Of a stretch of DNA of 64,000 bases, positions 2,972-31,335 are shown piece after piece (positions within the stretch are counted from its first letter, which is position 1; each line of letters starts with the position of its first letter). Under the pieces are notes generated by a model. The model saw nothing but the letters and a program-made list of their open reading frames with translations, did not search any database and was not told the origin of the DNA. This DNA comes from Terriglobia bacterium (lineage in GTDB: Bacteria; Acidobacteriota; Terriglobia; Terriglobales; Acidobacteriaceae). The stretch is from NCBI GenBank assembly GCA_021325035.1, contig JAJPHW010000100.1, positions 20,506 to 84,505 of the forward strand, in the 5' to 3' direction. The translations under genes were made by a program, and so were the position numbers.

Positions 2972-3045
2972 GTTAGGGGTACTCTAACTGAAGCATAATC
3001 ATTCGGAAAGTTAACGCAGATGTATTAGTCGTCACGAGAAGGTAA

Positions 3046-5228: not shown

Positions 5229-5244
5229 ATTGCCGCTGACAGTC

Positions 5245-10716: not shown

Positions 10717-11864
10717 GCAAAGATTCCCCCCATGTTCTGACGTTGACGCCTTTTTATCCCGTGTTAGGCGATGATGCACAAGGTTGTTTCGTCGCAGAAC
10801 CAATGCACAATCTGGAAGCTTTGGGTGTGCGGCAAACGATATTTGCAGTGCAGCCATTTTATCGGGGAGCGTTAATCCCCAATCCAACTGCGCCAAAAGC
10901 TCGCGGAGTGAGCTTTATTTCTTTACCTGGCGGGTTTGGTCTTCCTACGTCCGGGCTCTTTTTATTCGCAAGCATCATTCGCGAAGTGAGGCGAATTCAT
11001 ACGGCGAATCCGATTGATGTTATTCATGCACATGCGGCAATGCCATGCGGACATGCAGCAGTTCTCCTCAAACGGGAACTGGGCATTCCATTTGTCGTGT
11101 CAGTGCATGGGCTAGACGCTTATTCGACAAGACAGGTTACAGGGCTTTCAGGGCATGCATGTCGGCGCATCTCAAGCATGGTGTACCGGTCTGCCGACTG
11201 CATCATTTGTGTGAGTGAGAAAGTACGCGAGCAAGTCGTGCGAGGCTTAATTAGTGCGCGTACTGTCGTAGTTTATAACGGAGTTGATCCTGAAATATTT
11301 TCCCCCGAACAGAAAGATTGCGCCGACTTTGTGTTGAGCGTCGGTGGACTTATTCCGATTAAAGGTCATGAAGTATTGATCCGAGGGTTCGCGAAGATAA
11401 GCCAAGATTTCCCGGGATTTACCTGTGAAATTATTGGTGATGGGCCCGAGAGATCAAAACTGGAGAACATAGCAAGAGAGTTGGGGATAGCAAAGAAAGT
11501 ACGGTTTAGGGGCCGTTTGTCACGAGCCCAAGTGGCGGCACTTATGCGGCGCTGCGCAGTATTTGTATTGCCGAGTCGTTATGAGGCTTTAGGATGCGTC
11601 TATCTTGAAGCCATGGCTGCCGGTAAAGCCGTGATCGCGGGGAAAGATCAAGGCATTGAGGAAATCATCCAATCTGGTTACAACGGTTGCTTAGTTGCTC
11701 CCACTGATGTATCGCAACTTTCCGATGCACTCGCCGCTTTGTTAAGGGATGCAGCAAATCGGCGGCGGATAGGAATAGCGGCACGAGAGACGGTGCTTGC
11801 TGGGCTCACATTCGATCATCAGGCACGGGCATTGAAACTTGTATACGAGCAACGTGCGCAATGA
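10713..11864 (+). CDS. GT4 family glycosyltransferase
   Basis: PTKAR...VSVHGLDAYSTRQ...VLPSRYEALGCVYLEAMAAGKAVIAGKDQGIEEII; ATG 10713 overlaps upstream stop. Confidence 0.88.
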   Translation: MSKDSPHVLTLTPFYPVLGDDAQGCFVAEPMHNLEALGVRQTIFAVQPFYRGALIPNPTAPKARGVSFISLPGGFGLPTSGLFLFASIIREVRRIHTANPIDVIHAHAAMPCGHAAVLLKRELGIPFVVSVHGLDAYSTRQVTGLSGHACRRISSMVYRSADCIICVSEKVREQVVRGLISARTVVVYNGVDPEIFSPEQKDCADFVLSVGGLIPIKGHEVLIRGFAKISQDFPGFTCEIIGDGPERSKLENIARELGIAKKVRFRGRLSRAQVAALMRRCAVFVLPSRYEALGCVYLEAMAAGKAVIAGKDQGIEEIIQSGYNGCLVAPTDVSQLSDALAALLRDAANRRRIGIAARETVLAGLTFDHQARALKLVYEQRAQ

Positions 11865-13015
11865 CCAAGCGGCTTGTTGTCATCACAGAAATCATTGCTC
11901 CTTATCGGATCCCTGTTTTTAATGCTCTTGCCAAACAGCCGGGAATTGATCTCCACGTAATTTTTCTTGCTGAGACTGACCCGGCACTGCGGGAGTGGCT
12001 TGTTTACAAGGATGAACTCCAGTTCTCTTATCAGGTCTTGCGCTCATGGCGTATGAAGCTGGGAACACGCAAAATACTTTTGAATTGGGGGTTGAATTCG
12101 GCTTTACGTAAACTCTCTCCAGACGCAATCATTTGTGGCGGATACAACGATTTCGCGTATTGGAATGCACTCCGGTGGTCTCATCGTAAAAACGTGCCTT
12201 TTTTTGTATGGGTTGAAAGTAATGCCCAGGATCAGAGGGGCAAGACTAAATTAGTGCAATCCCTTAAGGGGCGTTTTTTGAGAGCAAGTAGGGGAGTTGT
12301 CGTTTCTGGAAAATCCTCAGCGAATTATGTCAAAACTTTTGGCGTTGCTGAAACAGTGATTTTTACAGCGCCCAATGCGGTTGATAATGTGCTATTCGCG
12401 AACGGTGCCTCACGTATCCGTATGCAAAAAACTACGAAACGGCACGAATTAGAATTGCCCGAACGATATTTTCTTTTCGTGGGACGTCTCGTCAGAGAAA
12501 AAGGAGTTTTTGATCTTCTCGAAGCGTATGCTTTGCTCAGTCCTGATCTCCGCCAACAAATGGGATTAGTTTTTGTTGGTGACGGATCTGAACGCGCTCT
12601 GCTCGAAGAACGCGCGAGCAAAATTGTGGCAGGCAGTATTATCTTCAGCGGTTTTGTGCATAGAGATGAGCTAATCGCGTATTACGCGATGTCTGATATT
12701 TTTATTTTTCCTACACATAGTGATCCCTGGGGGCTAGCCGTTAATGAAGCGATGGCATGTGGGTTGCCGATTGTGATTACACAAGTTGCGGGCTGCGCCG
12801 AAGATCTTGTGCTAGACCGATGGAATGGACGAGTGGTTTTACCCCGAAACCCCTCTCAGCTAGCGGAAGCGATGAAGGAAGTTGCCGGTGACTCCAACTT
12901 GCAGAGATTAATGGGACAAAGAAGCTTAGAACGGATAGGCAAATATTCTCCTGAACTATGTGCCAGCGGCATGGCACAGGCCATATATTCGTGTTGTGAT
13001 GACCATGACTCTTGA
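11861..13015 (+). CDS. GT4 family glycosyltransferase
   Basis: YFLFVGRLVREKGVFDLLEAYALL...FIFPTHSDPWGLAVNEAMACGLPIVITQVAGCAEDLV. Confidence 0.88.
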   Translation: MTKRLVVITEIIAPYRIPVFNALAKQPGIDLHVIFLAETDPALREWLVYKDELQFSYQVLRSWRMKLGTRKILLNWGLNSALRKLSPDAIICGGYNDFAYWNALRWSHRKNVPFFVWVESNAQDQRGKTKLVQSLKGRFLRASRGVVVSGKSSANYVKTFGVAETVIFTAPNAVDNVLFANGASRIRMQKTTKRHELELPERYFLFVGRLVREKGVFDLLEAYALLSPDLRQQMGLVFVGDGSERALLEERASKIVAGSIIFSGFVHRDELIAYYAMSDIFIFPTHSDPWGLAVNEAMACGLPIVITQVAGCAEDLVLDRWNGRVVLPRNPSQLAEAMKEVAGDSNLQRLMGQRSLERIGKYSPELCASGMAQAIYSCCDDHDS

Positions 13016-14435
13016 GCGGATCCCATTGCGCATACTGGGGTCGGCACTTTTAGTGATCTTGATTTCAGTAGTTTTGCTGCGCTTTTTCCCTGGATATCTC
13101 ACTAATACACAATTTCTAGCTGGAATCATCTTTTTGCAGGTACTGCTGGCAATCGTATGGAACTATCGCCAAAGACTCATGCCGGCACTGGCCCTTGCTT
13201 TCCTTGGGGCCGGGACATACACGCCTTTGCAGCCGGTGTTTAGTCCTATACGCTGGGTTTTGTTGGCCATAGGTGCATTGGGTGGACTGGCTCTATATCT
13301 ACGTGAACGTGGGCATTGGTTTGGATTGTTTCACGCAATTGCTCTATCTTGCATTCTGTCTTCGTTTGCTTCCGCTGTGGTCTCTACATACGCAGAAGTT
13401 TCTTTTCTAAAAGCAGCAAGTCTTCTACTTCTATTTCTTTACGGCATTTCCGGTGCCAGACTTGTAGTTTTATTCTCGTCGTGGAGTTTTTTAAGCAGTT
13501 TGCGGATTGGTCTCGAGGTTTTTACTTATATAACAGCCGTCTCTTATTTTGTTTTTCACTATTCTTTAATGGGAAACCCGAATTCTTTGGGTGCGATTAT
13601 GGGCGTGATCGTATTGCCATATTTACTCTGGTTCGCGTTGACCTCCGATGATGCAGGTGCCCGCCACAAGCGGCAATTGGCTCTAATTATTTCAATTTGT
13701 TTGTTGTTGAGCAGTTATTCGCGAGCGAGCATTGGAGCGGGATTCATTGCTGCGTTGTTGATATGTTTTGGATTGCGGCAGTATAAATTCTTCGTGAGAG
13801 GCTTGGCTGTGGCTCTCCTTTGCGCGGTCGTGGTTGCAGCGCTTGTCCCAATGAAATCTGAAACATCAGGTCAAGGGCAAACGCCGGTAGCAAAGTTTCT
13901 CTATAAGGGACACGAAAGCCAGAATGTTCTACAATCCCGCCTTTCCGTATGGGATCAGACAATCGATTCTATTCGCAGCCACCCATTTTTCGGCACAGGT
14001 TTTGGGACGAGCTTGGCGAATGAGAACGCCGGGTCATCCCGGTTACAGGGAATACGAGTATCATCCGATGTAGGCGTTCGTGAACATGGAAACAGTTATC
14101 TTGCCATCATGGAATGGCAAGGCCTTTTAGGTGTGATTCCGTTTTTCGCTCTAATTTCGCTGGTTGCTTTGTACGCAGTGCGTGTTTTTATACAAGTCAG
14201 GAACATACAGGACCTTTCTTCTCCTCTCATTGTTTTTGCAGCCGTGATGCTTGGAGGTTTATTCCATGCTGCGTTTGAAGATTGGCTATTTGCTGTTGGT
14301 TATTACCTCTGCGTGTATTTTTGGATTTTCGCTTTTATTTTCGTGGATTTACTTCATCGGGCCTCCGAGCCTTACCCAGAAGCCGAAACTACATTTACTC
14401 CCGTAGCACAAAGCGCTGCCGGAAGCGCAACCTGA
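12999..14435 (+). CDS. O-antigen ligase/polymerase-like polytopic membrane protein (Wzy/WaaL type)
   Basis: Many hydrophobic helices plus RLSVWDQTIDSIRSHPFFGTGFGTSLANENAG...VREHGNSYLAIMEWQGLLGVIPF, typical Wzy_C/O-antigen ligase loop. Confidence 0.8.
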   Translation: MTMTLERIPLRILGSALLVILISVVLLRFFPGYLTNTQFLAGIIFLQVLLAIVWNYRQRLMPALALAFLGAGTYTPLQPVFSPIRWVLLAIGALGGLALYLRERGHWFGLFHAIALSCILSSFASAVVSTYAEVSFLKAASLLLLFLYGISGARLVVLFSSWSFLSSLRIGLEVFTYITAVSYFVFHYSLMGNPNSLGAIMGVIVLPYLLWFALTSDDAGARHKRQLALIISICLLLSSYSRASIGAGFIAALLICFGLRQYKFFVRGLAVALLCAVVVAALVPMKSETSGQGQTPVAKFLYKGHESQNVLQSRLSVWDQTIDSIRSHPFFGTGFGTSLANENAGSSRLQGIRVSSDVGVREHGNSYLAIMEWQGLLGVIPFFALISLVALYAVRVFIQVRNIQDLSSPLIVFAAVMLGGLFHAAFEDWLFAVGYYLCVYFWIFAFIFVDLLHRASEPYPEAETTFTPVAQSAAGSAT

Positions 14436-16364: not shown

Positions 16365-18260
16365 ATGTGTGGAATCGTTGGCATCGCGGCAACTAGATCT
16401 AACGTGGATCGCGCCCTGCTCGATTCTGCGACATATTCACTTGCTCACCGCGGACCCGATGACTCCGGCACGATCGTTATCCACGATGGTGAAAATGAGA
16501 TTGGTCTCGGGAATCGCCGCTTAGCGATACTCGATCTGTCGCCGCTCGGTCACCAGCCGATGGAAGATCCAAAAACCGGGAATTGGATTGTTTATAACGG
16601 CGAGATATTTAATTTCCGCGAATTACGGCACGAACTGAGCAAAGCAGGGTTTGAATTTCGGAGCAACTCGGACACGGAAGTTCTACTAAAGGCCTATGCA
16701 TTTTGGGGAGAACAAAGCCTAACTCGACTGCGAGGCATGTTTGCCTTTGCGCTTTGGGATGCATCGAAACGCCATTTGTTTATCGCTCGTGATCCCATGG
16801 GAGTGAAGCCGCTCTATTTCGGCTCTTTTGGCCCATATTTCATTTTTGCATCGGAAGTCCGCACGTTATTGGGCACAGGCATGGTTCCTCGCCGCGTTGA
16901 TCGCGCCGGATTATCAAACTATATAACCTTCGGCTCACTTTACGATCCCATCACATTGATCGACAGAGTGTCATCTTTGTGCCCGGGGCATTATTTGATA
17001 TGGAAAAATGGGCGAATTCAAGAAACTTGCTATTGGGACTTGGTGGACTCCACTTCCACAAGACTGGATTATTCAGCTGAATCACGCCAACGAATGGAAC
17101 AAGATTTACATGTTGAAATTTATGACGCTGTACAGAAACAGATGATTAGTGATGTGCCGGTGGGCGTGTTTCTTTCAGGAGGGATAGATTCAAGCGCGCT
17201 GGTTGGGATTCTGAGTCAAAACGGAATTAGACCCGATACTTTTTCTATCGTATTTCGCGAGTCTGATTACAACGAAGCTGCATATTCTCAAATAGTAGCT
17301 AAGCATTTCGAAACGAGCCATCATGAAATCTGTGCTTCGCAAGGTGAGGCGCTTGAGCTTATTCCAGAAGCAATCGCATCCATGGACTTGCCAACTATCG
17401 ATGGCGTCAACACCTATTTCGTCTCACGAAAGACCCGGGAAGCGGGCCTCAAAGTTGCTTTATCCGGCCTCGGAGGTGATGAGCTTTTTGCAGGCTATTC
17501 AACCTTTGTGGATGTCCCCAAAATGCAGAAATTCTCAGATTTCTGGAAATATACCCCCGGCAAAAGCGCCCTTGCCGCCCTTTTTTCAGTCTTGACACCT
17601 GAAAATGACCGTAATCGTAAATTGGCGGCTTTGTTGTTAGATCAAGATAGCTTGTCGCTTCCATACTTTTTGGCGCGGATGTTATTTACTCCAAGTCTCC
17701 GCCATTCATTGATTACTCATATTTCGGAAGAGGATAGCAACAGAGCGGCGACTGAGCTCTTGAAGAATTTGAATCGTGTAAAAAAATTGGACGAGATCAA
17801 CCAAATTTCCTATTTGGAATCTCGTTGTTACATGCTAAATACTCTTCTGCGCGATTCTGATGCTTTAAGCATGGCTAATGGGCTAGAGGTCCGGGTGCCT
17901 CTTACTGATCATCAACTGGCACGAAGGGCAATCTCGATTCCGGGAGCTTGGAAGATCAAGCGCGGTGAACCAAAGCATTTGTTGGTTGATGCGCTGAAAG
18001 GTTCCTTACCCAGCGAAATTGTCCATCGCCGGAAACGGGGTTTTACTTTGCCCTTTGAGCATTGGTTGAAGGATGATTTACGACGAGATTTAGAAAAGTC
18101 TTTCCGAGACATGGCCGATGGCCCGCTAGGCGGTGTTATCAATCAGGAGGCAGTGTGGAAGGTATGGCAGGACTTCCAAGAAGGGAAAACCTCCTGGTCA
18201 CGCCCTTGGTCTCTTCATGTGTTGCACCAATGGTGCACGCGCCATGCGGTTACCGTTTAG
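16365..18260 (+). CDS. asnB: asparagine synthase (glutamine-hydrolysing)-type amidotransferase, copy 1
   Basis: MCGIVGIAA N-terminal Cys nucleophile, YNGEIFNFRELR, FLSGGIDSSALVG PP-loop, LSGLGGDELFAGY. Confidence 0.92.
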   Translation: MCGIVGIAATRSNVDRALLDSATYSLAHRGPDDSGTIVIHDGENEIGLGNRRLAILDLSPLGHQPMEDPKTGNWIVYNGEIFNFRELRHELSKAGFEFRSNSDTEVLLKAYAFWGEQSLTRLRGMFAFALWDASKRHLFIARDPMGVKPLYFGSFGPYFIFASEVRTLLGTGMVPRRVDRAGLSNYITFGSLYDPITLIDRVSSLCPGHYLIWKNGRIQETCYWDLVDSTSTRLDYSAESRQRMEQDLHVEIYDAVQKQMISDVPVGVFLSGGIDSSALVGILSQNGIRPDTFSIVFRESDYNEAAYSQIVAKHFETSHHEICASQGEALELIPEAIASMDLPTIDGVNTYFVSRKTREAGLKVALSGLGGDELFAGYSTFVDVPKMQKFSDFWKYTPGKSALAALFSVLTPENDRNRKLAALLLDQDSLSLPYFLARMLFTPSLRHSLITHISEEDSNRAATELLKNLNRVKKLDEINQISYLESRCYMLNTLLRDSDALSMANGLEVRVPLTDHQLARRAISIPGAWKIKRGEPKHLLVDALKGSLPSEIVHRRKRGFTLPFEHWLKDDLRRDLEKSFRDMADGPLGGVINQEAVWKVWQDFQEGKTSWSRPWSLHVLHQWCTRHAVTV

Positions 18261-18311: not shown

Positions 18312-19217
18312 GTGAGTTCCGCGATAACAAGCCCCGAGGATTCTGTGAATACGCCTTCTCCTGGCGTAGCACCTCTTCCTGTAAGCGTAATCATCGCTAC
18401 ACGGAATGAAGAAAAAAACTTACCTCGGTGCCTGGAATCTTTGAATTGCGTTGAAGAAGTTTATGTTGTTGATTCGCAGAGTAGCGATGCAACAGTTGCA
18501 ATTGCCGAGGCATATCATGCAAAGGTCGTGCAATTTCACTACAAAGGTGGATGGCCAAAAAAGCGGCAATGGGCACTTGATCATCTTCCGGTTGTAGCCG
18601 ATTGGGTTTTACTTCTCGATGCCGATGAGGCATTGACACCCGAGATTCGAAGAGAAATAGAATGCGCAATTTCAAAGCATGACTTCAACGGGTATTACAT
18701 TGCGTTGCAGATGCATTTCTTAGGGAAAGAATTGCGCCACTGTGGTGCGAATTTCTATAAGCTTTCACTTTTTCGCAAGGGCAAAGGCAGATTTGAGTGC
18801 AGGTTGCAGGACCAGGATCCCTCGATGGCCGACATGGAAGTTCATGAGCACGTTGTCGTCGAAGGGCCGACAGCAAAACTCAAGAACCCCATAACCCACC
18901 ATAATGTTGATTCGCTTGCGAAGTATATTCAAAAGCACAATGAATACTCGAACTGGGATGCGGCGGTGTGGGTTGAAGGGAAATCTGCTGATCTGCCACC
19001 AACTTTATTTGGCAATCAAGCGCAACGTCGTCGTTGGCTCAAACAAAGGTTTTTCGCGGTACCTGGCTCGCCTGTTGTTCTGTTTCTTTACCGGTATTTT
19101 TTTCGACTGGGCTTTTTGGATGGAATTCCAGGGTTCGTCTACTGCGCATTTCAGGCAATTCAACTGTTCCATGTAAAAGCCAAGGTTTATGAGATGAAAT
19201 TGGCACAACGGGTTTGA
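18312..19217 (+). CDS. GT2 family glycosyltransferase (WaaE/KdtX-like)
   Basis: VSVIIATRNEEKNLPRCLESLNCVEEVYVVDSQSSDATV...WVLLLDADEALTPE. Confidence 0.85.
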   Translation: MSSAITSPEDSVNTPSPGVAPLPVSVIIATRNEEKNLPRCLESLNCVEEVYVVDSQSSDATVAIAEAYHAKVVQFHYKGGWPKKRQWALDHLPVVADWVLLLDADEALTPEIRREIECAISKHDFNGYYIALQMHFLGKELRHCGANFYKLSLFRKGKGRFECRLQDQDPSMADMEVHEHVVVEGPTAKLKNPITHHNVDSLAKYIQKHNEYSNWDAAVWVEGKSADLPPTLFGNQAQRRRWLKQRFFAVPGSPVVLFLYRYFFRLGFLDGIPGFVYCAFQAIQLFHVKAKVYEMKLAQRV

Positions 19218-19223
19218 ACCTTC

Positions 19224-21224
19224 ATGTGCGGCATTAGCGGCCTACTCAATTGCGGTGACCGACCCACCATCGAGCGCATGACCTCAATTCAATCGCACCG
19301 CGGACCCGATGATTCTGGAATATGGGAACAGCATTTTCCAGATGGTGGCTATATTGGCTTCGGAAGCCGCCGTCTGGCCATTCTTGATCTTTCGCCAAGC
19401 GGCCACATGCCGATGTGCAATGAAGATCGCACCGTTTGGATTACGTACAACGGCGAAATTTATAACTACCTGGATCTGCGCGAAGAACTCCGTCAAAAGG
19501 GGCATCATTTTTTCTCGGAAACTGACACAGAAGTCGTCTTACGACTGTATGAGCAGGACGGGCCTGATTGTGTAAAAAAACTCAATGGCATGTTTGCGTT
19601 TGCCATCTGCGACCTGCGTGGCGGCCGCCGGACATTATTTCTTGCTCGCGATCACTTCGGAATTAAGCCCTTGTATTACGTACACCAAGGGCAACGGTTT
19701 GCCTTTGCTTCAGAAATCAAAGCACTACTGCAGGTTCCGGGAATTGAGCCTGAACTTGATGCGCAATCATTGCATCAGTATTTAACTTTTTTGTGGGTCC
19801 CCGAACCCAACACAATGTTCAAGGGGATTTTCAAGCTGCCGCCTGGGCACACCGCGATTTTCCGCGAAAGCAATCTGGAACTTCATCAATATTGGGATCT
19901 TACTTTTCCTCCAAAGGAACATAACTACGGTTCTCGCACAGAAGCAGAATTGTCGGAAGAATTGCGCGGCCGCTTTCAGCAAGTTGTTAAGCGGCAAATG
20001 GTGAGCGACGTGCCTATCGGGGCATTTCTCAGCGCCGGATTGGATTCTTCCAGCATCGTGGCGGCAATGGCGCATGCCGGAACTGGGCGAACGATACGAA
20101 CTTACACGATTACATTTCCGTCGAAATATCGTATCGGCGAAACTGCATTAGATGATCCGGCCGTACCTGCACGGTTTGCCAAGAGTCTTGGATTAGAAAA
20201 TCGTCAAATTATGGTCGAACCGGATGTGGCTGATATGCTTCCGCGTATTGCATGGCATATGGATGAGCCTGTCGCAGATCCCGCAATCATTACGGCTTAT
20301 CTAGTATGCAGGGAAGCGCGTAAAGATTCCACGGTTTTGCTCTCTGGCGTGGGCGGGGATGAATTATTTGCAGGATACCGCAAATATATCGCGCATTATT
20401 GGGCAAATGCCTATGGCAGGATCCCATCGCCGCTCCGCAATTTGGCCAGCAGATCGGTATCTAGTCTGCCGGGTATGCGCGGAACTCATGTGAAGGGAAT
20501 TTTGCGTTTTGCCAAAAAGATGGTTCGCAGTGCTTCTCTGCCTCCAATCGAGCGTTTTGTGATGAATTGTACGTACCTCGACAGCAATCAGAAAGAACAG
20601 CTATACACCAATGATTTTGGCCGCCGAATAAATTTGGATAATCCTGCAGATGGCCGGCATCGCGAAGCATTTGCTCAAGTGAAGGATTCTGACTTTTTAA
20701 ATCAGATGTTGTATGTGGATAGCAAAATTTTCATGCCTTCCTTGAATCTGGCATATAACGACAGGATGAGCATGGCAAATTCTGTGGAAGTGCGGGTGCC
20801 TTTTCTGGATCGCGAACTTGCTGAATTTGCAGCTTGGGATATAGCTCCAGAGTTCAAATTGAAAGGTTTTTATCATCCGGTCACAAAATATATTTTCCGC
20901 AAAGCGATGGCGCCACTGCTACCCAAAGAAGTCTTGCGCCAGCCAAAAGCAGGATTTGCAGCCCCGGTGGATTATTGGCTCGCCCACGATTTGCGAGAGA
21001 TGGTGGATGACTTACTTTCTGAATCCCGAATTATGCAGCGCGGAATATTTGAGCCCAAGGTTGTGCAAAAATTTGTGGACGAGCAGCGCAAAGGCATTCA
21101 AGATTGGTCTATGCAAATTTGGCAATTCTTGACGCTGGAAATATGGATGCAGACTTTTCTTGACATTGGTAAACAACAATTTGCAGATAAGCACGGGGCT
21201 CATCCTCAAGCAGCATTGGCATGA
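19224..21224 (+). CDS. asnB: asparagine synthase (glutamine-hydrolysing)-type amidotransferase, copy 2
   Basis: MCGISGLLNCGDRPTIERMTSIQSHRGPDDSGIW, FLSAGLDSSSIVAAMA, LSGVGGDELFAGYRKY. Confidence 0.92.
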   Translation: MCGISGLLNCGDRPTIERMTSIQSHRGPDDSGIWEQHFPDGGYIGFGSRRLAILDLSPSGHMPMCNEDRTVWITYNGEIYNYLDLREELRQKGHHFFSETDTEVVLRLYEQDGPDCVKKLNGMFAFAICDLRGGRRTLFLARDHFGIKPLYYVHQGQRFAFASEIKALLQVPGIEPELDAQSLHQYLTFLWVPEPNTMFKGIFKLPPGHTAIFRESNLELHQYWDLTFPPKEHNYGSRTEAELSEELRGRFQQVVKRQMVSDVPIGAFLSAGLDSSSIVAAMAHAGTGRTIRTYTITFPSKYRIGETALDDPAVPARFAKSLGLENRQIMVEPDVADMLPRIAWHMDEPVADPAIITAYLVCREARKDSTVLLSGVGGDELFAGYRKYIAHYWANAYGRIPSPLRNLASRSVSSLPGMRGTHVKGILRFAKKMVRSASLPPIERFVMNCTYLDSNQKEQLYTNDFGRRINLDNPADGRHREAFAQVKDSDFLNQMLYVDSKIFMPSLNLAYNDRMSMANSVEVRVPFLDRELAEFAAWDIAPEFKLKGFYHPVTKYIFRKAMAPLLPKEVLRQPKAGFAAPVDYWLAHDLREMVDDLLSESRIMQRGIFEPKVVQKFVDEQRKGIQDWSMQIWQFLTLEIWMQTFLDIGKQQFADKHGAHPQAALA

Positions 21225-23443
21225 AACAAGTCTTACAAGACGCTCGTAGTGGAGAGATCAAGGTAGTGGAAGTTCCGTCACCCCGATTGCTGCCGGGGTG
21301 CGTTCTGGTGCGGATTGCAGCGTCCCTGGTTTCTGCCGGTACCGAAAGGGCCTCCACAGAGTTTGCTGAAAAAAACTTACTGCAAAAAGCTCAAGCAAGG
21401 CCTGATTTAGTGAGAGATGTTCTGAACAAGGTGCGGCGCGACGGCGTCGTTTCCACCTTGTCGTCTGTACGGAGCCGGTTGGATCTGCCGAGTGCACTTG
21501 GCTACAGCAGTGCAGGAACGGTGATCGCTACAGCGGATGAAATAAATGATATTCGGCCCGGTGACCGGGTCGCATGTGCTGGTGCCGGTTATGCGGTTCA
21601 CGCTCAAGTCGCGTGTATTCCGCGGTTGCTGACAACGAAAATTCCAGAAGCTTCCGTCAGCCTGGAAGAAGCTGCGTTCACAACTGTAGGCACAGTTGCG
21701 TTACATGGCATTCGAGTGGCTGATATCAGATTGGGTGACGTCGTTGCAGTGATTGGATTGGGTTTACTCGGGCAATTGACTGTGCAACTTCTGAAAGCTG
21801 CCGGTTGTCGTGTAGTCGGGATGGACATCAATACGGCGCGCGCGATTCTCGCCAAGACGCTCGGAGCAGATGCAGTTTCAACCTCTCCCGCTGAGTTTCG
21901 CGATTTGTGTTTGCAGTACTCCTCCGGACATCTGGCAGATGCAGTCTTAGTTACTGCGGAAACGGTTAGCAGCGGTCCAGTAAATTTGGCGGGAGAAGTT
22001 GCTCGCGATCGAGCCATTGTCGTTGCTGTGGGCACCGTGGGCATGGATATTCAGCGCAAGACGTTTTATGAGAAGGAGTTGGATTTCCGTATTTCGCGTT
22101 CCTATGGCCCTGGCCGCTATGACAGTGCCTACGAGCAAAAAGGCCGCGATTATCCTATTGGATACGTGCGCTGGACGGAAACCCGGAACATGGAAGCTTT
22201 CTTGAGAATGGTTGCCGACGGTAAATTAAATTTGCAATCGCTCATTACGCACCGTTTTCAGGTAGAACAAGCGCCACGTGCTTATGAATTGATTACAGGT
22301 TCTACTGGCTCTCCATTCCTAGGAGTGCTAATCAAGTATCCGGATTTTCCCGAAGAAAAACTGATTGTTGAATCGCGTGTTGCTGTGAGCAAGGCAAGGC
22401 CAGAAAGCGCGGTGCGGATCGGCCTTATCGGGGCGGGGGCGTTTGCAACCGGGACTCTACTTCCCGCGATCAAACAGATTCAAGGAATTGACTTAATCGG
22501 GGTTTGTGCGGCTAACGGATCTCATTCGGAAAAGGCCGCAGGAAAATTTGGTTTTCAATATTCCACATCGGATGAAGATCGAGTTCTTCGCGATCCCAAT
22601 GTCAACGCGGTTGTCATTTCGACCCGGCATAATCTGCATGCGCGACAAGTCATGGCCGCAATTAGATCCCGTAAACACGTCTTCTGCGAGAAGCCTCTGT
22701 GTTTGACTGAGGATGAACTTGCCGCAATTGTGCAATGTCACGCACAATACGCGATGCCTCATGGATTGCAACTAATGGTTGGTTTCAACCGACGTTTTTC
22801 TCCCATGATGAGAAAAATGAAAGACTTTCTTGGACAAATCCATGAACCATTTGCCTTAAATTACCGGGTGAATGCGGGCATGCTAGCCGCTGACCATTGG
22901 ACGAATGACCCAGAGCAGGGAGGCGGCCGAATTCGTGGGGAAGTTTGTCATTTTGTTGACCTATTGACATTTCTGGCTGGCCCACCAACTGAAGTACACA
23001 CACGCGCACTTGCGAATCCTGGTCAATATTCTGACGACAACGTTTTAATTACTCTTCAATTTGCTAATGGTTCTCAAGGCAACATAACGTATGTGGCCAA
23101 TGGAGATCGAGCCTACTCCAAGGAACGGCTCGAAGTATTTGGAGGCGGCGTGGTCGCCGTGATGGAAGATTTTCGCACACTCGAACTGGTGCGCAATGGC
23201 CGCAAGCAACAAGTTAGTGCACGAATCAGACAAGACAAAGGTCACAGTGCTGAATTGCAGGCATTTGCTAATTCGATTCGGGAAGGAAGTTCGAGTCCAA
23301 TCCCATTCGCAGAAATCGTCGCATCCACACTAGCAACTTTAGGAGCAATGGATTCCCTTCACTATGGACAACCATTTACGGTTGATGCCATGAATTTTAT
23401 AGCGTTACATTCATCCTCTTTACGGCTCAGCGCCAACCCATGA
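21221..23443 (+). CDS. bi-domain oxidoreductase: zinc-type alcohol dehydrogenase fused to Gfo/Idh/MocA dehydrogenase
   Basis: N-half: LGYSSAGTVIATADEINDIRPGDRVACAGAGYAVHAQ, VIGLGLLGQLTVQLLKAAGCRVVGMDI; C-half: VRIGLIGAGAFATGTLLPAIKQI, HVFCEKPLCLTEDEL. Confidence 0.9.
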   Translation: MKQVLQDARSGEIKVVEVPSPRLLPGCVLVRIAASLVSAGTERASTEFAEKNLLQKAQARPDLVRDVLNKVRRDGVVSTLSSVRSRLDLPSALGYSSAGTVIATADEINDIRPGDRVACAGAGYAVHAQVACIPRLLTTKIPEASVSLEEAAFTTVGTVALHGIRVADIRLGDVVAVIGLGLLGQLTVQLLKAAGCRVVGMDINTARAILAKTLGADAVSTSPAEFRDLCLQYSSGHLADAVLVTAETVSSGPVNLAGEVARDRAIVVAVGTVGMDIQRKTFYEKELDFRISRSYGPGRYDSAYEQKGRDYPIGYVRWTETRNMEAFLRMVADGKLNLQSLITHRFQVEQAPRAYELITGSTGSPFLGVLIKYPDFPEEKLIVESRVAVSKARPESAVRIGLIGAGAFATGTLLPAIKQIQGIDLIGVCAANGSHSEKAAGKFGFQYSTSDEDRVLRDPNVNAVVISTRHNLHARQVMAAIRSRKHVFCEKPLCLTEDELAAIVQCHAQYAMPHGLQLMVGFNRRFSPMMRKMKDFLGQIHEPFALNYRVNAGMLAADHWTNDPEQGGGRIRGEVCHFVDLLTFLAGPPTEVHTRALANPGQYSDDNVLITLQFANGSQGNITYVANGDRAYSKERLEVFGGGVVAVMEDFRTLELVRNGRKQQVSARIRQDKGHSAELQAFANSIREGSSSPIPFAEIVASTLATLGAMDSLHYGQPFTVDAMNFIALHSSSLRLSANP

Positions 23444-23486: not shown

Positions 23487-25223
23487 ATGCTGATCTTGGG
23501 TCTCAACATGTTTCACGCCGACGCTTCCGCTGCAATTGTGCAGGATGGGGAAGTGATCTTTGCCATAGCGGAAGAGCGCCTCAATCGAGTGAAGCATTAT
23601 GCGGGGTTCCCTGCACTGGCTGTGCGTGCATGTTTGGATGCTGCCGGTGCAAAACCTTCCGATCTTGATCATGTTGCGATTGGCCATGACAGCAGCGCGA
23701 ATCTTGCACAGAAAATGCAGTACGCCATATCCAATCCGGCCAAGATCATGAATTTCCTGCGTTTACGCCAGCGCAAAGAAGCCATGCGTGATGTGCGTAC
23801 ACTACTGGCGTGTGCCATGGATGTTGACATCGCCGCTTTACGTTTCCACCAGCACAATCTCGAGCATCACATTGCGCATATCGCGAGCGCATATTATTGC
23901 TCGCCCTGGGAAAAGGCAGCTGGTTTCAGCTATGACGGCTCCGGAGATTTTGTGTCTGCGATGATGGCTCGTTGCGAGGGCTCTGAAATTGAGATCCTCA
24001 GTCGCGTTTATCTGCCGCATTCCCTAGGTAGTTTCTACACCATGATTTGTGAGTTCATCGGATACAAAGAATATGGAGATGAAGGCAAAGTCATGGGCCT
24101 CGCGCCCTATGGAAAAGAGACTTACTGTGAGCGCATCAAGGATCTCATTTCGATCAAACAAGATGGGGGCTATGCCCTAAACTTGAGTTACTTCCAGCCT
24201 TTGGGAAGCAATCAGGGTATGCAGATTCGCGAGGATGGGACAGTTAGTCTCGCGCCGCACTTTTCCACGCGCATGAGCGACGAGTTTGGTGTTCCTCGTG
24301 AACCACATACAGAAATCACCCAACGCGATATGGATCTGGCGTTTGCCATGCAACACCGTTTCGAAGAAGTTTTCTTTCATATGCTGAATAACCTGCATCA
24401 GAAAGTGGCTCTGGATGACCTTGTGATGGCGGGAGGCTGTGCACTCAATAGTGTTGCGAACGGCAAACTATTTGACGCCACCCCTTTTCGGCGTACTTGG
24501 TTGCAGCCGGCTGCAGGGGACGAAGGCCTTGCCATCGGGGCAGCTCTTCATGTGCATTACTCGATCCTGAAACAAAAGCAGCGTTTTGCGATGACACATT
24601 CTTACCTTGGTCCGCAGTTTTCCGACGAACGCATCGAATCCGACTTAAAAGCTGCGGGTTTGCGCTATCGAAAGTTTGGGCGAGAGCCCTTACTCGAAAC
24701 GATAGCTTCGCACATTGCAGAAGGTTATGTTATTGGCTGGTTTCAGGGCCGAATGGAGTGGGGGCCGCGGGCCCTTGGAAATCGCTCGATTCTGGCCCAC
24801 CCCGGGCGCCCTGATATGAAAGACATCCTGAATGCGCGCATCAAACGCCGGGAGTGGTTCCGTCCTTTTGCCCCTTCAATTTTGGTTGAGCGGCAGGCAG
24901 AGTATTTTGAGCACGATCACCCGTCTCCATTTATGTTGCATGTTTATAAGATTCGCCCCCAAAAGCGGCAAGAACTTTGTGCAGTGAACCATGTGGACAA
25001 TACTGGCCGCCTGCAAACTGTGAGTCGGGAAGAGAACCCGCTCTACTACGATTTGATCAAGGCTTTTGAGCGGAAGACAGGCATCCCGCTGGTTTTGAAC
25101 ACCAGTTTTAATGAGAATGAGCCGATCGTCTGCCAGCCCTCCGAAGCGATTGATTGCTTCAAGCGAACCCGTATGGATGTTCTTGCTATCGGATCGTTCG
25201 TCGCGATGAAAGCAGAAAACTAG
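23487..25223 (+). CDS. carbamoyltransferase, NodU/CmcH family
   Basis: MLILGLNMFHADASAAIVQDGEVIFAIAEERLNRVKH; GDEGKVMGLAPYG; WFQGRMEWGPRALGNRSILAHP; LNTSFNENEPIV. Confidence 0.93.
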   Translation: MLILGLNMFHADASAAIVQDGEVIFAIAEERLNRVKHYAGFPALAVRACLDAAGAKPSDLDHVAIGHDSSANLAQKMQYAISNPAKIMNFLRLRQRKEAMRDVRTLLACAMDVDIAALRFHQHNLEHHIAHIASAYYCSPWEKAAGFSYDGSGDFVSAMMARCEGSEIEILSRVYLPHSLGSFYTMICEFIGYKEYGDEGKVMGLAPYGKETYCERIKDLISIKQDGGYALNLSYFQPLGSNQGMQIREDGTVSLAPHFSTRMSDEFGVPREPHTEITQRDMDLAFAMQHRFEEVFFHMLNNLHQKVALDDLVMAGGCALNSVANGKLFDATPFRRTWLQPAAGDEGLAIGAALHVHYSILKQKQRFAMTHSYLGPQFSDERIESDLKAAGLRYRKFGREPLLETIASHIAEGYVIGWFQGRMEWGPRALGNRSILAHPGRPDMKDILNARIKRREWFRPFAPSILVERQAEYFEHDHPSPFMLHVYKIRPQKRQELCAVNHVDNTGRLQTVSREENPLYYDLIKAFERKTGIPLVLNTSFNENEPIVCQPSEAIDCFKRTRMDVLAIGSFVAMKAEN

Positions 25224-25293: not shown

Positions 25294-26319
25294 ATGCATG
25301 TTGCTACTTTCCCACGGATGCGGGCACTGGCATGGTCGGGAGAAACTCTCTACGCGTCGCGGGGATATACCTTGCTGTCCGCCAAGATTGAAAATCAATC
25401 CATTCGATGGCAAGAGGTTGGACGTTACGATCCATCGATATGGCGTAACCTGACGGCTTCGATGCTATTAACTTTTCGGCTTGTGCGCGATGGGTTTCAC
25501 GCTTTGTCCGTCTTGCCGTCGGGCGCGCTTATCGCGACGGTTCCCGGCGCAATCATTACGTTGGCAGCGGGTGATACCAAATTTCACGTAACACATAGGG
25601 TTAAGAGAGGAACGCGTCCTCTCCATATTTGCTCGACTTCGGGCGGCTCGGTTCTTTTCGGCGAGTACTTTGATAATCCCGAAAGAGAAGAAGTACACAT
25701 CTATGCTTCGGGCGACCATGGCGAAACGTGGGGCATCGCACACACTTTCCCGAAAGGCGCGATCCGTCACGTTCACAACATCGTCTATGACGCGTGGGAT
25801 GAATGCCTGTGGATTCTCACAGGGGATAATGGCCCCGAATGCCGCATTATGCGTGCTTCTTGCGACTTGAAGCATATTGAAACTGTCATGGAAGGAAATC
25901 AGCAGGCGAGATCTGTGGCTTTGGTTCCAACAAAAAACGGGGTGTATTTTTCGTCGGATACGCCGTCGGAAAGCAATCATGTCTATTTCTTAGATCGGTC
26001 GGGAAAGTTAAGCGTTCTTGCAGATTTGCCCAGTTCTTCGATTTACGGTTGCCGAGTTGGAAAAGCTGTATTTTTTTCGACCATGGTCGAGCCGAGCGCA
26101 GTGAATCAGGAAACCGAGGCATGTCTGTATGGAGCGTTCGATGGTATTTCCTGGCGGCGTGAAATGTCGTGGCAGAAAGACGCTTGGCATTTTCGCTTGT
26201 TTCAATATGGCAACGTTCTTTTGCCTGATGGTGAGAACGGGACTAATTTTCTTGCAATCTCAACAGTAGCGGTCAAAGCGGGAGATTCACAAACTTCGGT
26301 TTGGAAGATCGTGCGCTAA
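25294..26319 (+). CDS. beta-propeller/BNR-like hypothetical protein in polysaccharide locus
   Basis: Long ORF with repeated strand-rich segments and HVTHRVKRGTRPLHICSTSGGSVLFGEYFDN...IYASGDHGETWGIAHTF (BNR Asp-box-like). Confidence 0.6.
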   Translation: MHVATFPRMRALAWSGETLYASRGYTLLSAKIENQSIRWQEVGRYDPSIWRNLTASMLLTFRLVRDGFHALSVLPSGALIATVPGAIITLAAGDTKFHVTHRVKRGTRPLHICSTSGGSVLFGEYFDNPEREEVHIYASGDHGETWGIAHTFPKGAIRHVHNIVYDAWDECLWILTGDNGPECRIMRASCDLKHIETVMEGNQQARSVALVPTKNGVYFSSDTPSESNHVYFLDRSGKLSVLADLPSSSIYGCRVGKAVFFSTMVEPSAVNQETEACLYGAFDGISWRREMSWQKDAWHFRLFQYGNVLLPDGENGTNFLAISTVAVKAGDSQTSVWKIVR

Positions 26320-26378: not shown

Positions 26379-27359
26379 ATGCCTATCGCGCAGCGCTTAC
26401 AGTACTATCGTCGTATTTTCAGCGCCTATTTATCGCCGCGCGAAAGTCAGCTTACTTTCTGGCATGATCAACCACAGGAAAATTCTCACGCTGGCCCCAA
26501 TCAGCTTGGCGAATATTACATGCTGTTTGCCGAAAAGGCTGACTATTCCGGTGTGCATGATTCCGTGGGAATTCCAATGCTTGATTATCACGGGCAAATT
26601 GGTGCGCAATACAACCCCATTGCCATTGCGCAATGGGGATTAGGAAATCATGATCTATTCCGGCGTACGGCAGAATTAAAACGCCGAGAGCAATTTATCA
26701 AGGCGGCAGATTGGCTCAGAATGCGGTTGGAGAAAAATTCATTTGGAATCTCGGTTTGGAACCATAATTTCGATTGGGAGTACCGCACAACCCTGAAGGC
26801 GCCTTGGTTTTCCGCGCTGGCCCAGGGGCAGGGAATATCCTTGCTGGTACGCGCGTTCGCGGAAACGCAACAAGCCGTCTATATGGAAGCTGCGCACCTT
26901 GCGATGGAAAGTTTCTGGTCTTCCGTCCGCGAAGGCGGGGTTACGTTTATTGACGAACTCAATAACTACTGGTTCGAAGAATACGTCGTATTTCCACCGA
27001 CCCATATTTTGAATGGCTTCATTTGGGCAGCATGGGGAGTCTATGACTATTTCGTTGCGACGCAAGATAAGCGGGCGCATGGCCTGTTTCAGAAGGCAGT
27101 AGTTACCCTGAAATCCAATCTTCAAAACTACGACTTAGGTTTTTGGTCGCTCTATGAACAATCGGGAACTCGCTTACCGATGATAGCCAGCGCTTTCTAT
27201 CATCGTTTGCACATTGTTCAACTGCGAGTGATGCATCGCTTAACGCAAGACAAGATATTTTTGGAGTATGCGGACCGTTGGGATACTTACACGCGCAGCC
27301 CCGCGAGGCGAATAAGGGCGCTGGCTTACAAAGCGGCGTTCAAGCTTCTCTACTACTAA
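26379..27359 (+). CDS. D-glucuronyl C5-epimerase family protein
   Basis: DSVGIPMLDYHGQIGAQYNPIAIAQWGLGNHDLF...APWFSALAQGQGISLLVRAF...THILNGFIWAAWGVYDY...GFWSLYEQSGTRLPMIASAFYHRLHIVQL match the GLCE C-terminal catalytic domain pattern. Confidence 0.85.
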   Translation: MPIAQRLQYYRRIFSAYLSPRESQLTFWHDQPQENSHAGPNQLGEYYMLFAEKADYSGVHDSVGIPMLDYHGQIGAQYNPIAIAQWGLGNHDLFRRTAELKRREQFIKAADWLRMRLEKNSFGISVWNHNFDWEYRTTLKAPWFSALAQGQGISLLVRAFAETQQAVYMEAAHLAMESFWSSVREGGVTFIDELNNYWFEEYVVFPPTHILNGFIWAAWGVYDYFVATQDKRAHGLFQKAVVTLKSNLQNYDLGFWSLYEQSGTRLPMIASAFYHRLHIVQLRVMHRLTQDKIFLEYADRWDTYTRSPARRIRALAYKAAFKLLYY

Positions 27360-27363
27360 ATTT

Positions 27364-28614
27364 GTGAAAATTCTCTACGTCTCACAGTATTTTCCGCCAG
27401 AGATGGGTGCTCCTGCAGCGCGCGTGGCTGAGTTGTCGAGCCACTGGGCGTCCGCTGGTCATGAGGTTACGGTGCTGACCGGATTTCCCAATCATCCCAC
27501 GGGAGTCTTGGCCCAAGAATATCGCGGAAAATTGCATCATCTGATTCTCCACGAAGAGTTTCACGGAGTTAAGGTAGTTCGGACATGGCTCCTGCCATTC
27601 CCCAACCGGAAGTCAATCGAACGCATTTTGAACTACAGTTCTTTCTGTTTTTCATCGGCGCTGACTGGCAGCTTTCTTCCTCGCCCCGATGTCGTCATTG
27701 CCACATCGCCTCAACTGCTAGCGGGGCTATCGGGCTGGTGGCTTTCTCGAAAGCATAGTATCCCTTTCATTTTTGAGGTGCGGGACTTATGGCCGGAGTC
27801 GCTGGTTGCTGTCGGAGTTGGCAATGAAAATTCATTGCTCCATCGTTTGTTGTCAAAGCTTGCGGGATTCTTGTATCAAAAAAGCCATCGCATTGTTGTG
27901 GTTACGCCGGCATTCAAAACCCATTTGATGCAAAAGTGGGGCGTGCCTGAAGAAAAAATCACTATTGTAGAAAATGGGGTCGAAACCGATCTGTTTCAAC
28001 CAAGAGCAAATGATGATTTAACTGCGGAATTACGCCGGTCATGGAACGCAAAGGATAAGTTTGTGGTTTGCTATATCGGTACGATGGGCATGGCGCATGG
28101 GCTGGAAACGTTGCTTGATGTTGCATCACAACTGCAAAGTTCACGTCCAGATATCTTGTTTGTGCTTGTCGGTGAGGGCGCTGAGAAAGAACGCATCTTA
28201 ACGATGGCCCGCGGACGCAACCTAGGGAATGTACGTTTCATTGATCAACAGCCGCGAGAAATCATTCCTGCGTATATCAACGCGACCGATGTTTGCCTGG
28301 TACTACTTAAAAAGACAGATGTTTTCAAAACCGTTATACCCACCAAAATGCTCGAGTACATGGCTTGTGGGCGTCCAGTAATTCTGGGTGTTGACGGTCA
28401 AGCTCGCACCATTCTTGAAGAAGCTCAGGCAGGTATTTTCGTTGAGCCGGAAAATGTAGATGCGCTGCGCCATGCAATTCTGAAACTGGCGGCGAGTGTG
28501 CCATTGCGCGCTGAACTCAGTCAAAATGGCCGCGACTACATCGTAAAAAATGCTTCGCGGGAAAGCACAGCCAGGACCTATATAGGAGCTTTGGAAACTA
28601 TTGCACCGCGATGA
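27364..28614 (+). CDS. GT4 glycosyltransferase (WcaI/WbuB-like)
   Basis: MKILYVSQYFPPEMGAPAARVAELSSHWASAGHEVTVLTGFPNHPTG; GTG start; IFEVRDLWPESLVAVG. Confidence 0.9.
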   Translation: MKILYVSQYFPPEMGAPAARVAELSSHWASAGHEVTVLTGFPNHPTGVLAQEYRGKLHHLILHEEFHGVKVVRTWLLPFPNRKSIERILNYSSFCFSSALTGSFLPRPDVVIATSPQLLAGLSGWWLSRKHSIPFIFEVRDLWPESLVAVGVGNENSLLHRLLSKLAGFLYQKSHRIVVVTPAFKTHLMQKWGVPEEKITIVENGVETDLFQPRANDDLTAELRRSWNAKDKFVVCYIGTMGMAHGLETLLDVASQLQSSRPDILFVLVGEGAEKERILTMARGRNLGNVRFIDQQPREIIPAYINATDVCLVLLKKTDVFKTVIPTKMLEYMACGRPVILGVDGQARTILEEAQAGIFVEPENVDALRHAILKLAASVPLRAELSQNGRDYIVKNASRESTARTYIGALETIAPR

Positions 28615-29575
28615 TACTGACGGCAGTGGCAGCTTGCATGGCTGCTTCCATGCTACGTCCGGCAATGGCTTTGGCGGTGCTGGTGGGAACAAACAAAATG
28701 TCGTCCGCTTGCATGGGAATATCAGGCGCTTTTGCGGAAAGAATTTTCTGGAGCTTAACGCTCGTCTCGGTCAAGCCGTCTGGCCCCTTGCGGATCAGTT
28801 TGGCCCCGCCCAGTTTTGCTGTGTGAGTCGTTCCACCGGCCAGGGCGATCGCCTGAAGCACAGTCAAGTGTCCGCTTTCCATTAAGAAGCCACTCGGACG
28901 TCCAACATCGCCGACCACGTAAACGATATCTGCTTTGCGGATGACAATCGTGTCTCCGGGAGCGATCGTGATGTTGCTCTCCGGTTTATCTTCCAGGTTG
29001 CGGGCAAGTTCTACGACTTGTGGCTTGTCAGGTTGGTCGCGATGGGTGATGCTCGCGCTGCGTCCAGCTTTATCGGTTAATCCGCCAGAGGCGGAAATCA
29101 GATCAAACAAATGCGCTGAACCCGATACTGGGTAAATCCCTGGCCTGTTTACCTGACCGAGGACGCTGGCACCCTGCGCCCCTTGTTGCGTTACCAGAAC
29201 AGAAACGTGAGGGTTGTTGACAAAACCTCCCTCTGACAGCCTTTTTTCGATGAGAGTTTGCGCTTGGTCGGGTGTAAGTCCTCCGACCATCACGTAACCA
29301 ATCAGAGGCAAATATAGATCGCCGCTCGCGTTGATGCGGGTTTTGGTGGTCAGTTCAGGAACGTTGTAGACGCTGACTTCCACCATATCGTCGGGGCCGA
29401 GCTTATCAACATTCTGGACTATCGAGGACGGCGTTGCAGTCAAACCCGTGTTTGAGGGAAGTGATGTTTGCGCAGAGCCTCGCCAAGAGGTTGTCACAAC
29501 GATAGCGATCAAAATGTATAAGCGCCGGTTAAACCACCGGCTCAACTCGACCGGCCTGATGAAACTTGGTGACAT
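28598..29575 (-). CDS. polysaccharide export protein, Wza-like with SLBB domains
   Basis: LGPDDMVEVSVYNVPELTTKTRINASGDLYLPLIGYVMVGGLTPDQAQTLIEKRL Poly_export motif; SLBB repeats; N-terminal signal-like segment. 3' end overlaps the convergent glycosyltransferase by 17 nt. Confidence 0.9.
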   Translation of the reverse strand: MSPSFIRPVELSRWFNRRLYILIAIVVTTSWRGSAQTSLPSNTGLTATPSSIVQNVDKLGPDDMVEVSVYNVPELTTKTRINASGDLYLPLIGYVMVGGLTPDQAQTLIEKRLSEGGFVNNPHVSVLVTQQGAQGASVLGQVNRPGIYPVSGSAHLFDLISASGGLTDKAGRSASITHRDQPDKPQVVELARNLEDKPESNITIAPGDTIVIRKADIVYVVGDVGRPSGFLMESGHLTVLQAIALAGGTTHTAKLGGAKLIRKGPDGLTETSVKLQKILSAKAPDIPMQADDILFVPTSTAKAIAGRSMEAAMQAATAVSIIAVQ

Positions 29576-29739: not shown

Positions 29740-29760
29740 CACACTGTGGAGGGGGGCGGG

Positions 29761-31335
29761 TTGACGGCATTTTTCCTGGGGATCTTCGGGGCTTCACTTT
29801 TATCCTCCTTCATTCTCACTAAATTTGTAAGAGATTCTGCTATGGCGCGCGGGTGGGTTGCGGCGCCCGGCAGCAGTCGCCACTTGCACAATAAGCCCCT
29901 GCCTCGCCTTGGTGGTGTCGCGATTTACCTGGCATTTTGCGGCAGCGTTCTAACGTCATTTCTCGCAGCGTGGCTACACCCCGAGTGGCAGGTTGGATTT
30001 CCCGCTAAAGCCGGACTCACCATTTTGGCCCCCGCAACACTGATCTTTCTTCTGGGCGTTTACGACGACATTCGTTCGTTGGGCCCGTGGGTCAAGTTTG
30101 CGGTGCAGGCTGCAGCTGCGACGATGCTTTTCGCCAGCGGATTAAGAATCCTCGACCTCAGGGTGCTCTTTGGAGGGCATCATTTTTCCTCCTTCGTAAG
30201 CTTGCCACTTACCATTCTTTGGGTCATCGGCGTTACAAACGCATTCAACTTGATAGATGGACTGGATGGCCTGGCGGCTGGATCTGCTTTGTTTTCGACT
30301 CTTGTCGTCTTCGTGGTTGCGCTATTGGGCCATTCCATGCTGGTTGCATTGATGACCCTGGCCTTGGCCGGCGCCATTCTTGGTTTTCTTCGTTTCAACT
30401 TTAACCCTGCAACAATTTTTCTAGGTGATTGCGGCAGTTTATTTATTGGATTTATTCTCAGCGCCCTTGCTCTGCAAGGCGCAGAGAAGGCGCCGACGAC
30501 TGTCGCGATTGCCATTCCAGTGGTTTCGTTTGGGCTTCCAATACTTGAAACGGCACTTTCTATTGCGAGGCGCTTCATCAGTGGACGTCCGGTGTTTACG
30601 GCCGACCGCGAGCACATTCACCACAAATTGTTGCAATTGGGACTTTCGCATCGCCAGGTCGTCATCGTACTTTACGGGGCTTCGGGCATATTTGCTTTAT
30701 TAAGCCTATTTTTACTGTGGCCGGCAGGTAGTACATTGGGGCTGGTTCTGGCTGTCTTGGGCAGCGGAATCTGGCTCGGTGTTCAACATTTGGGCTATCT
30801 GGAATTCGGAGAACTTCGGCGCGTTGCCCAACGGACGATTGAGCAGCGTCAAATCGTTATTAACAACCTGGCCATTCGCCGGGCTGTTGAAGAATTAAAG
30901 GTCGCGCAAGACAGCGATCAGTTGTTTTCAATTCTTATTGCTGCGTTTGGCGGGAATGATTTCGACGCTTTCGATTTGAATCTGCAAATCCCTTTGCCGA
31001 TCTTCTCTCCGTCAGACGCATTGCAGGTTTTGCAGAGCGACGATCACCAGCCTTACGTGCGTTGGTCAAAATCAGGCATGAAGTTCCATCAATTGGTGAC
31101 TTCCTGGAGTTTATGTCTGGATTTAGTCAGCATTAATGACCGTCGAATCGGGACGATGACTGTCCATCGTCTCTATAGCGAACGCGATCTTCAACTGGAT
31201 ATCAACCTGCTGATTTCCGTTTTTCCGTTAGCGTTAGCCGATGCATTACAAAAAATTTCTGTTAATCAAACCGAAGTCGTTCCTCGCCTGCACGCAATTC
31301 CCGCCGTTCTTGGCGCTAGCGCTGGCGCCGATTAA
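29761..31335 (+). CDS. MraY/WecA-family undecaprenyl-phosphate sugar-1-phosphate transferase with C-terminal cytoplasmic extension
   Basis: RLGGVAIYLAF, GVYDDIRSLGPWVKF, NAFNLIDGLDGLAAG, FLGDCGSLFIGF, DREHIHHKLLQLGLSHRQ. GGAGG at 29748-29752 supports TTG 29761 over GTG 29746. Confidence 0.9.
   Translation: MTAFFLGIFGASLLSSFILTKFVRDSAMARGWVAAPGSSRHLHNKPLPRLGGVAIYLAFCGSVLTSFLAAWLHPEWQVGFPAKAGLTILAPATLIFLLGVYDDIRSLGPWVKFAVQAAAATMLFASGLRILDLRVLFGGHHFSSFVSLPLTILWVIGVTNAFNLIDGLDGLAAGSALFSTLVVFVVALLGHSMLVALMTLALAGAILGFLRFNFNPATIFLGDCGSLFIGFILSALALQGAEKAPTTVAIAIPVVSFGLPILETALSIARRFISGRPVFTADREHIHHKLLQLGLSHRQVVIVLYGASGIFALLSLFLLWPAGSTLGLVLAVLGSGIWLGVQHLGYLEFGELRRVAQRTIEQRQIVINNLAIRRAVEELKVAQDSDQLFSILIAAFGGNDFDAFDLNLQIPLPIFSPSDALQVLQSDDHQPYVRWSKSGMKFHQLVTSWSLCLDLVSINDRRIGTMTVHRLYSERDLQLDINLLISVFPLALADALQKISVNQTEVVPRLHAIPAVLGASAGAD

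Follow-up and report, generated by a model that had tools for sequence, protein, structure and literature searches.

The 64,000-nucleotide stretch of DNA analysed here (the window) carries, at positions 26379 to 27359 of its forward strand, a reading frame of 326 codons that runs from an ATG to a stop codon and belongs, by its translation, to the C5-epimerase family PF06662. It lies among genes of polysaccharide synthesis, modification and export:

471 to 1568, forward strand: PseG, over the cut-off of its model
3046 to 4137, forward strand: pseudaminic acid synthase PseI, over the cut-off of its model
12960 to 14435, forward strand: Wzy_C / O-antigen-ligase-type membrane protein (PF04932), a candidate polymerase
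16365 to 18260, forward strand: second AsnB-type amidotransferase
18312 to 19217, forward strand: GT2 glycosyltransferase
19224 to 21224, forward strand: AsnB-type amidotransferase, similar to the XrtA/PEP-CTERM amidotransferase but under that model's cut-off
21221 to 23443, forward strand: bi-domain oxidoreductase (zinc-ADH and Gfo/Idh/MocA)
23487 to 25223, forward strand: NodU-like carbamoyltransferase (PF02543/PF16861)
25294 to 26319, forward strand: beta-propeller protein with no evident signal peptide, adjoining the C5-epimerase upstream
26379 to 27359, forward strand: C5-epimerase (PF06662), 326 aa, with predicted catalytic residues E201, Y202, N212, Y259 and Y274
27364 to 28614, forward strand: WcaI-like GT4 glycosyltransferase, 4 bp downstream of the C5-epimerase
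28598 to 29575, reverse strand: Wza/EpsE-like polysaccharide export protein (Poly_export, SLBB)
29746 to 31335, forward strand: WecA-like polyprenyl-phosphate sugar-1-phosphate transferase (PF00953)

The arrangement given in the original prediction, with a beta-propeller gene upstream of the epimerase and a GT4 gene downstream of it, was recovered, and its placement of the gene in a polysaccharide operon is borne out by the surrounding glycosyltransferases, export gene and WecA-like starter. Upstream of the window, the same contig encodes PseB and PseC, both above curated cut-offs, as well as another Wzy_C protein and one that is Wzz/tyrosine-kinase-like. No Wzx flippase (PF01943) was detected on this contig, and five matches lie elsewhere in the genome. 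Judging from its WecA-like, Wzy_C, Wzz/kinase and Wza-like genes, the locus looks Wzy-dependent in outline.

Several other components of the cluster are worth recording in their own right. The pseudaminic acid pathway (window positions 471 to 4137 and L002:17274-19572) sits in an acidobacterial polysaccharide cluster, and a cytidylyltransferase is also present. The beta-propeller protein has no match in Pfam; its predicted model consists of 28 strands and two short helices, and Foldseek returned many propellers among its matches, all of them generic. Across 19 homologues, 76 columns of this protein are invariant, several Arg, His and Glu among them, and it is possibly an unrecognised enzyme. 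The operon further encodes a 382-amino-acid protein (6941 to 8089) that matched nothing significantly in Pfam or NCBIfam and a sulfatase-family (PF00884) protein (8086 to 9573). Because the latter is without the C/S-x-P-x-R motif that active sulfatases carry, it gives no evidence for a sulfated sugar; it is perhaps a phosphoethanolamine-transferase-like enzyme.

The assignment of the epimerase gene was examined by the profile search that the original prediction had proposed. The match to Pfam C5-epim_C (PF06662) is significant (E = 1e-48, 165.8 bits, where the curated cut-off is 23.3), pairs protein residues 126 to 302 with positions 6 to 187 of the 188 in the profile, and is the protein's only Pfam match. 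No second PF06662 gene was found in the 3.86-Mb genome. A phmmer search of the PDB gave significant matches to GLCE alone, human (6hzz, E = 5.3e-27) and zebrafish (4pw2, E = 3.7e-24); with a profile of 30 homologues, the match to human GLCE rose to E = 2.7e-53. No PDB relative other than GLCE fell below E = 1e-20. A homologue of D-glucuronyl C5-epimerase (GLCE), which in animals forms the iduronic acid of heparin, at this position, as originally claimed, is therefore upheld by both the Pfam and the PDB matches.

The AlphaFold2 model computed from the 30-homologue alignment (pLDDT 90.7, pTM 0.90) is almost wholly helical, with just two strands of at least three residues. When this model was compared with the PDB by Foldseek, the top eight matches were human and zebrafish GLCE chains (E = 3e-13 to 1.3e-12), which superpose with an rmsd of 2.0 to 2.1 Å over about 213 columns at 28 to 30% identity, and the next were cellobiose 2-epimerases (E = 3e-4). 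In the profile alignment, the main match joins query residues 99 to 307 with residues 308 to 521 of the human GLCE chain, and a weak N-terminal match joins residues 24 to 97 with 61 to 138. Since query residues 97 to 99 span chain residues 138 to 308, a gap of about 170 residues, the beta-sandwich insert of animal GLCE is missing. The animal-type architecture (a dimer with an N-terminal beta-hairpin and a central beta-sandwich) was accordingly not seen in the profile alignment or the model, and the protein is, as predicted from both, the alpha-helical catalytic part of GLCE alone, in a single domain.

The key catalytic residues of GLCE are E499, Y500, N510, Y560 and Y578 in human numbering (PMC13308652). 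Chain and protein numbering were taken to differ by 90, the sole offset of three tried that fits all five human residues; on this basis, the residues align with E201, Y202, N212, Y259 and Y274, and all five are identical. E201, Y259 and Y274 are invariant in the alignment of 30 sequences, and the core homologues keep all five residues, except for one contig-truncated sequence at Y259 and Y274; in two divergent homologues (L063 and L064), Y202 is lost and N212 is replaced by D. The structural comparison with GLCE that had been suggested for the catalytic Tyr and Glu residues thus came out in favour of the assignment, as the predicted model superposes and every one of the five is kept. By alignment and model, the protein is a PF06662-family member with a GLCE-like predicted fold and an intact catalytic pentad.

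The gene recurs in a consistent setting. PF06662 was found in 32 of 150 sampled genomes of the same family, mostly within one syntenic block that comprises genes for the GT2, AsnB, bi-domain oxidoreductase, carbamoyltransferase, beta-propeller, C5-epimerase, WcaI-like GT4, Wza-like exporter and WecA-like transferase. Phylum-wide, it occurs in 6 of 297 sampled genomes, two of these six being from the same family. The protein of one close relative, Acidobacteria bacterium gp1 (L033), is 63% identical. All 26 core loci carry the WcaI-like GT4, which stands directly downstream of the epimerase (within about 100 bp) in 22, while the beta-propeller gene stands directly upstream in 20; the exporter was found in 20 of these loci, the GT2 in 19, the bi-domain oxidoreductase and the carbamoyltransferase in 18 each, and the WecA-like gene in 17. 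Counting GT2 orthologues genome-wide at a threshold of at least 60% identity, PF06662 occurs in 27 of the 29 genomes with an orthologue versus 5 of the 121 without (Fisher p = 1.7e-22, uncorrected for phylogeny). Three genomes (G081, G142 and G092) have the GT2 orthologue and the PF06662 gene on separate large contigs, and the PF06662 gene of G092 is divergent. The epimerase gene is part of a functional block and no stray.

No hydrophobic N-terminus was detected in the protein (maximum 11-residue hydropathy of -0.04 in the first 40 residues), and most close relatives likewise lack such a stretch. Because it has no signal peptide, which is the sole basis for the assignment, the enzyme is probably cytoplasmic. 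Its N- and C-terminal helices are cationic (charges +3 and +5), and membrane binding by them was considered and rejected, since their hydrophobic moments of 0.39 and 0.36 are no higher than those of the protein's other helices. A divergent homologue (L034:9360-10565), which scores above the window protein against both PF06662 and human GLCE, has a hydrophobic N-terminus (2.72) and a bacterial Ig-like domain C-terminal to its epimerase domain; secreted-looking versions therefore occur in the same bacterial family.

We consider it likely that this single-domain, predicted cytoplasmic protein inverts C5 of a uronic acid residue within the surface polysaccharide of the operon. By analogy with GLCE, the C5 proton beside the carboxylate would be removed by one conserved Glu or Tyr residue, and re-protonation from the opposite face would be carried out by another. 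The substrate would be a lipid-linked oligosaccharide repeat on the inner side of the membrane, since the protein lacks a signal peptide and the locus has WecA-like starter, Wzy_C and Wza-like export genes. Given the Wzy-type genes, the polymer would occur only outside the cytoplasm, and a cytoplasmic epimerase would therefore meet repeat units alone. The adjoining WcaI-like GT4 would add the flanking or the target sugar; amidation or carbamoylation of the repeat unit may fall to the AsnB and NodU-like enzymes.

Other readings of the same evidence have to be weighed. Related toroid folds are common to lyases, GH76, GH88 and 2-epimerases, all weaker Foldseek matches here, so the GLCE fold might have been retained in a protein that is no epimerase, for example a lyase or a structural protein; this is improbable, as the core clade conserves the full set of five GLCE catalytic residues and the GLCE E-values are about nine orders of magnitude better than those of any other fold relative. 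The polymer itself had originally been pictured as glycosaminoglycan-like, containing L-iduronate or another C5-inverted uronate, with no sulfotransferase recognised in the window. The last point is confirmed for the window's open reading frames that were scanned, none of which encoded one, and PF13469 is likewise absent from the whole contig. The product could be either of these uronates, but the glycosaminoglycan-like character is only partly supported: none of the 31 PF06662 genomes has PF13469 within 40 kb of PF06662 on the same contig (some contigs are short, and longer-range linkage could escape), seven of the 31 have no PF13469 match at all, and the cluster encodes decorations that animal glycosaminoglycans do not have. 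Read from their sequences, the two AsnB-type amidotransferases, the NodU-like carbamoyltransferase and the pseudaminic acid pathway point to a bacterial heteropolysaccharide and not to an animal-like glycosaminoglycan. It is thus very improbable that the operon makes a true sulfated glycosaminoglycan-like polymer, with the enzyme working in animal style on a long GlcA/GlcNAc chain. Family identity with GLCE, the WecA-like starter and the PF13469 sulfotransferases on other contigs of this genome would fit such a polymer, but the glycosyltransferases of the locus are mostly GT4 with one GT2, no heparosan-synthase-type arrangement was recognised among them, and the amidotransferase, carbamoyltransferase and pseudaminic acid genes indicate other chemistry.

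The identity of the uronate is a closer question. To our knowledge, every biochemically characterised PF06662 enzyme converts D-GlcA to L-IdoA, and for this reason the same conversion is somewhat favoured here; D-glucuronyl C5-epimerase as an enzyme class (EC 5.1.3.12) makes it within a chain. Several nucleotide-sugar dehydrogenases are encoded in the genome, among them a TuaD-like UDP-glucose dehydrogenase on contig C116 (511.8 bits, below the model cut-off of 700), which would provide UDP-GlcA. The dehydrogenase on the epimerase contig scores 267.5 bits with UDP-ManNAc dehydrogenase models versus 166.2 with AglM, and its PDB match to 4r16 (E = 8e-58) is better than that to the UDP-glucose dehydrogenase 3vtf (E = 2.6e-34), the closest entries being named UDP-ManNAcA dehydrogenase and Cap5O. 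Since the nearest dehydrogenases resemble UDP-ManNAc-type enzymes, L-GulNAcA may be the product in place of L-IdoA, the same enzyme and chemistry then acting on a 2-acetamido-2-deoxy uronate such as D-ManNAcA. The evidence for this comes from three loci, namely the present contig, G122 contig C17 (8 kb from a divergent PF06662 gene) and a Priestia megaterium plasmid locus with PF06662, whose dehydrogenases are nearer to UDP-ManNAc/HexNAc than to UDP-glucose dehydrogenase and score best, among substrate-specific models, against those for UDP-ManNAc; in addition, a WecB-type UDP-GlcNAc 2-epimerase lies within 6.5 kb of the PF06662 gene in 10 of 32 loci and also beside the Priestia gene. We nevertheless hold an acetamido uronate, the chief alternative to GlcA, to be a rather unlikely substrate: all three dehydrogenases score under curated equivalog cut-offs, the one on the epimerase contig is about 37 kb upstream on the opposite strand, WecB can serve other sugars and was not found on this contig, and the genome also encodes the UDP-glucose dehydrogenase on C116. 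In G013 and G031, by contrast, the dehydrogenases found at 17 kb and 30 kb from the PF06662 gene fall into the higher-scoring PF03721 group. The fuller proposal, in which a cut-down GLCE in the cytoplasm would invert C5 of a non-GlcA uronate (for example ManNAcA to L-GulNAcA) on a lipid-linked repeat that adjacent AsnB-type enzymes then amidate, is more doubtful still; our literature search found no GLCE-family member with non-GlcA specificity and a cytoplasmic, lipid-linked site of action.

Bacterial GLCE-family enzymes are already known, since Bermanella marisrubri RED65_08024 has been characterised as a D-glucuronyl C5-epimerase (Raedts et al. 2013, cited by PMC4432689 and PMC13308652) and plasmid records already bear the product name 'D-glucuronyl C5-epimerase family protein'. 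Only one bacterial enzyme with this activity has been biochemically identified (PMC13308652). As far as the published descriptions go, RED65_08024 resembles the window protein as a bacterial family member with a reportedly GLCE-like catalytic mechanism and a native polysaccharide that is not known (PMC4432689); it is biochemically proven, whereas the window protein is predicted from sequence. The human and zebrafish enzymes (PDB 6HZZ, 6I01, 6I02, 4PW2 and 4PXQ) share with the window protein the alpha-helical catalytic domain (2.0 Å over 213 columns) and the five catalytic residues, at 33% identity over 202 aligned residues; unlike them, it has neither the beta-sandwich insert nor a heparan sulfate or sulfation setting. 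The AlgG and AlgE mannuronan C5-epimerases are of a different fold family (beta-helix). As is proposed for the window protein, these bacterial enzymes epimerise uronates at C5 inside a polysaccharide, but AlgG is periplasmic and AlgE1-7 extracellular, both acting on alginate (PMC4432689), and the window protein matches PF06662 only. Agl32 of Halobacterium salinarum has a similar proposed role, the epimerisation at C5 of a uronate on a lipid-linked oligosaccharide prior to its export; however, Agl32 is AGE-type-epimerase-like and retains no GLCE catalytic residue (PMC13308652), whereas the window protein retains all five.

No paper found in our literature search combined a C5-epimerase, Acidobacteria and exopolysaccharide. 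The present analysis contributes the conserved block together with a single-domain, probably cytoplasmic form of the enzyme with an intact active site. A conserved locus that recurs across one bacterial family links the C5-epimerase to named partner genes and offers a tractable route to the target sugar and the stage of action of bacterial GLCEs, and small enzymes free of the beta-sandwich may help to make iduronate-containing glycans.

Heparinase II/III was also considered as a partner linked to the epimerase and was rejected, as the copy in this genome lies on contig C130 and the matches in relatives are not near PF06662. Contig C130 (L079:8037-14063 and L080:2813-3583) encodes a heparinase II/III-like protein, an AsnB, a nucleotide-sugar dehydrogenase and a PF13469 sulfotransferase; with this gene content it holds a candidate locus for a sulfated glycan, distinct from that of the epimerase. 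Of the 19 genomes of the family with PF16889, 12 have a PF13469 match no more than about 20 kb away from it. On contig C17 of G092, the GT2 orthologue (4954 to 5832) has a heparinase II/III-like gene (PF16889 match at 10499 to 11023) about 5 kb away, and the sole, divergent PF06662 gene of that genome is on another contig; possibly, a heparinase-like protein replaces the epimerase there.
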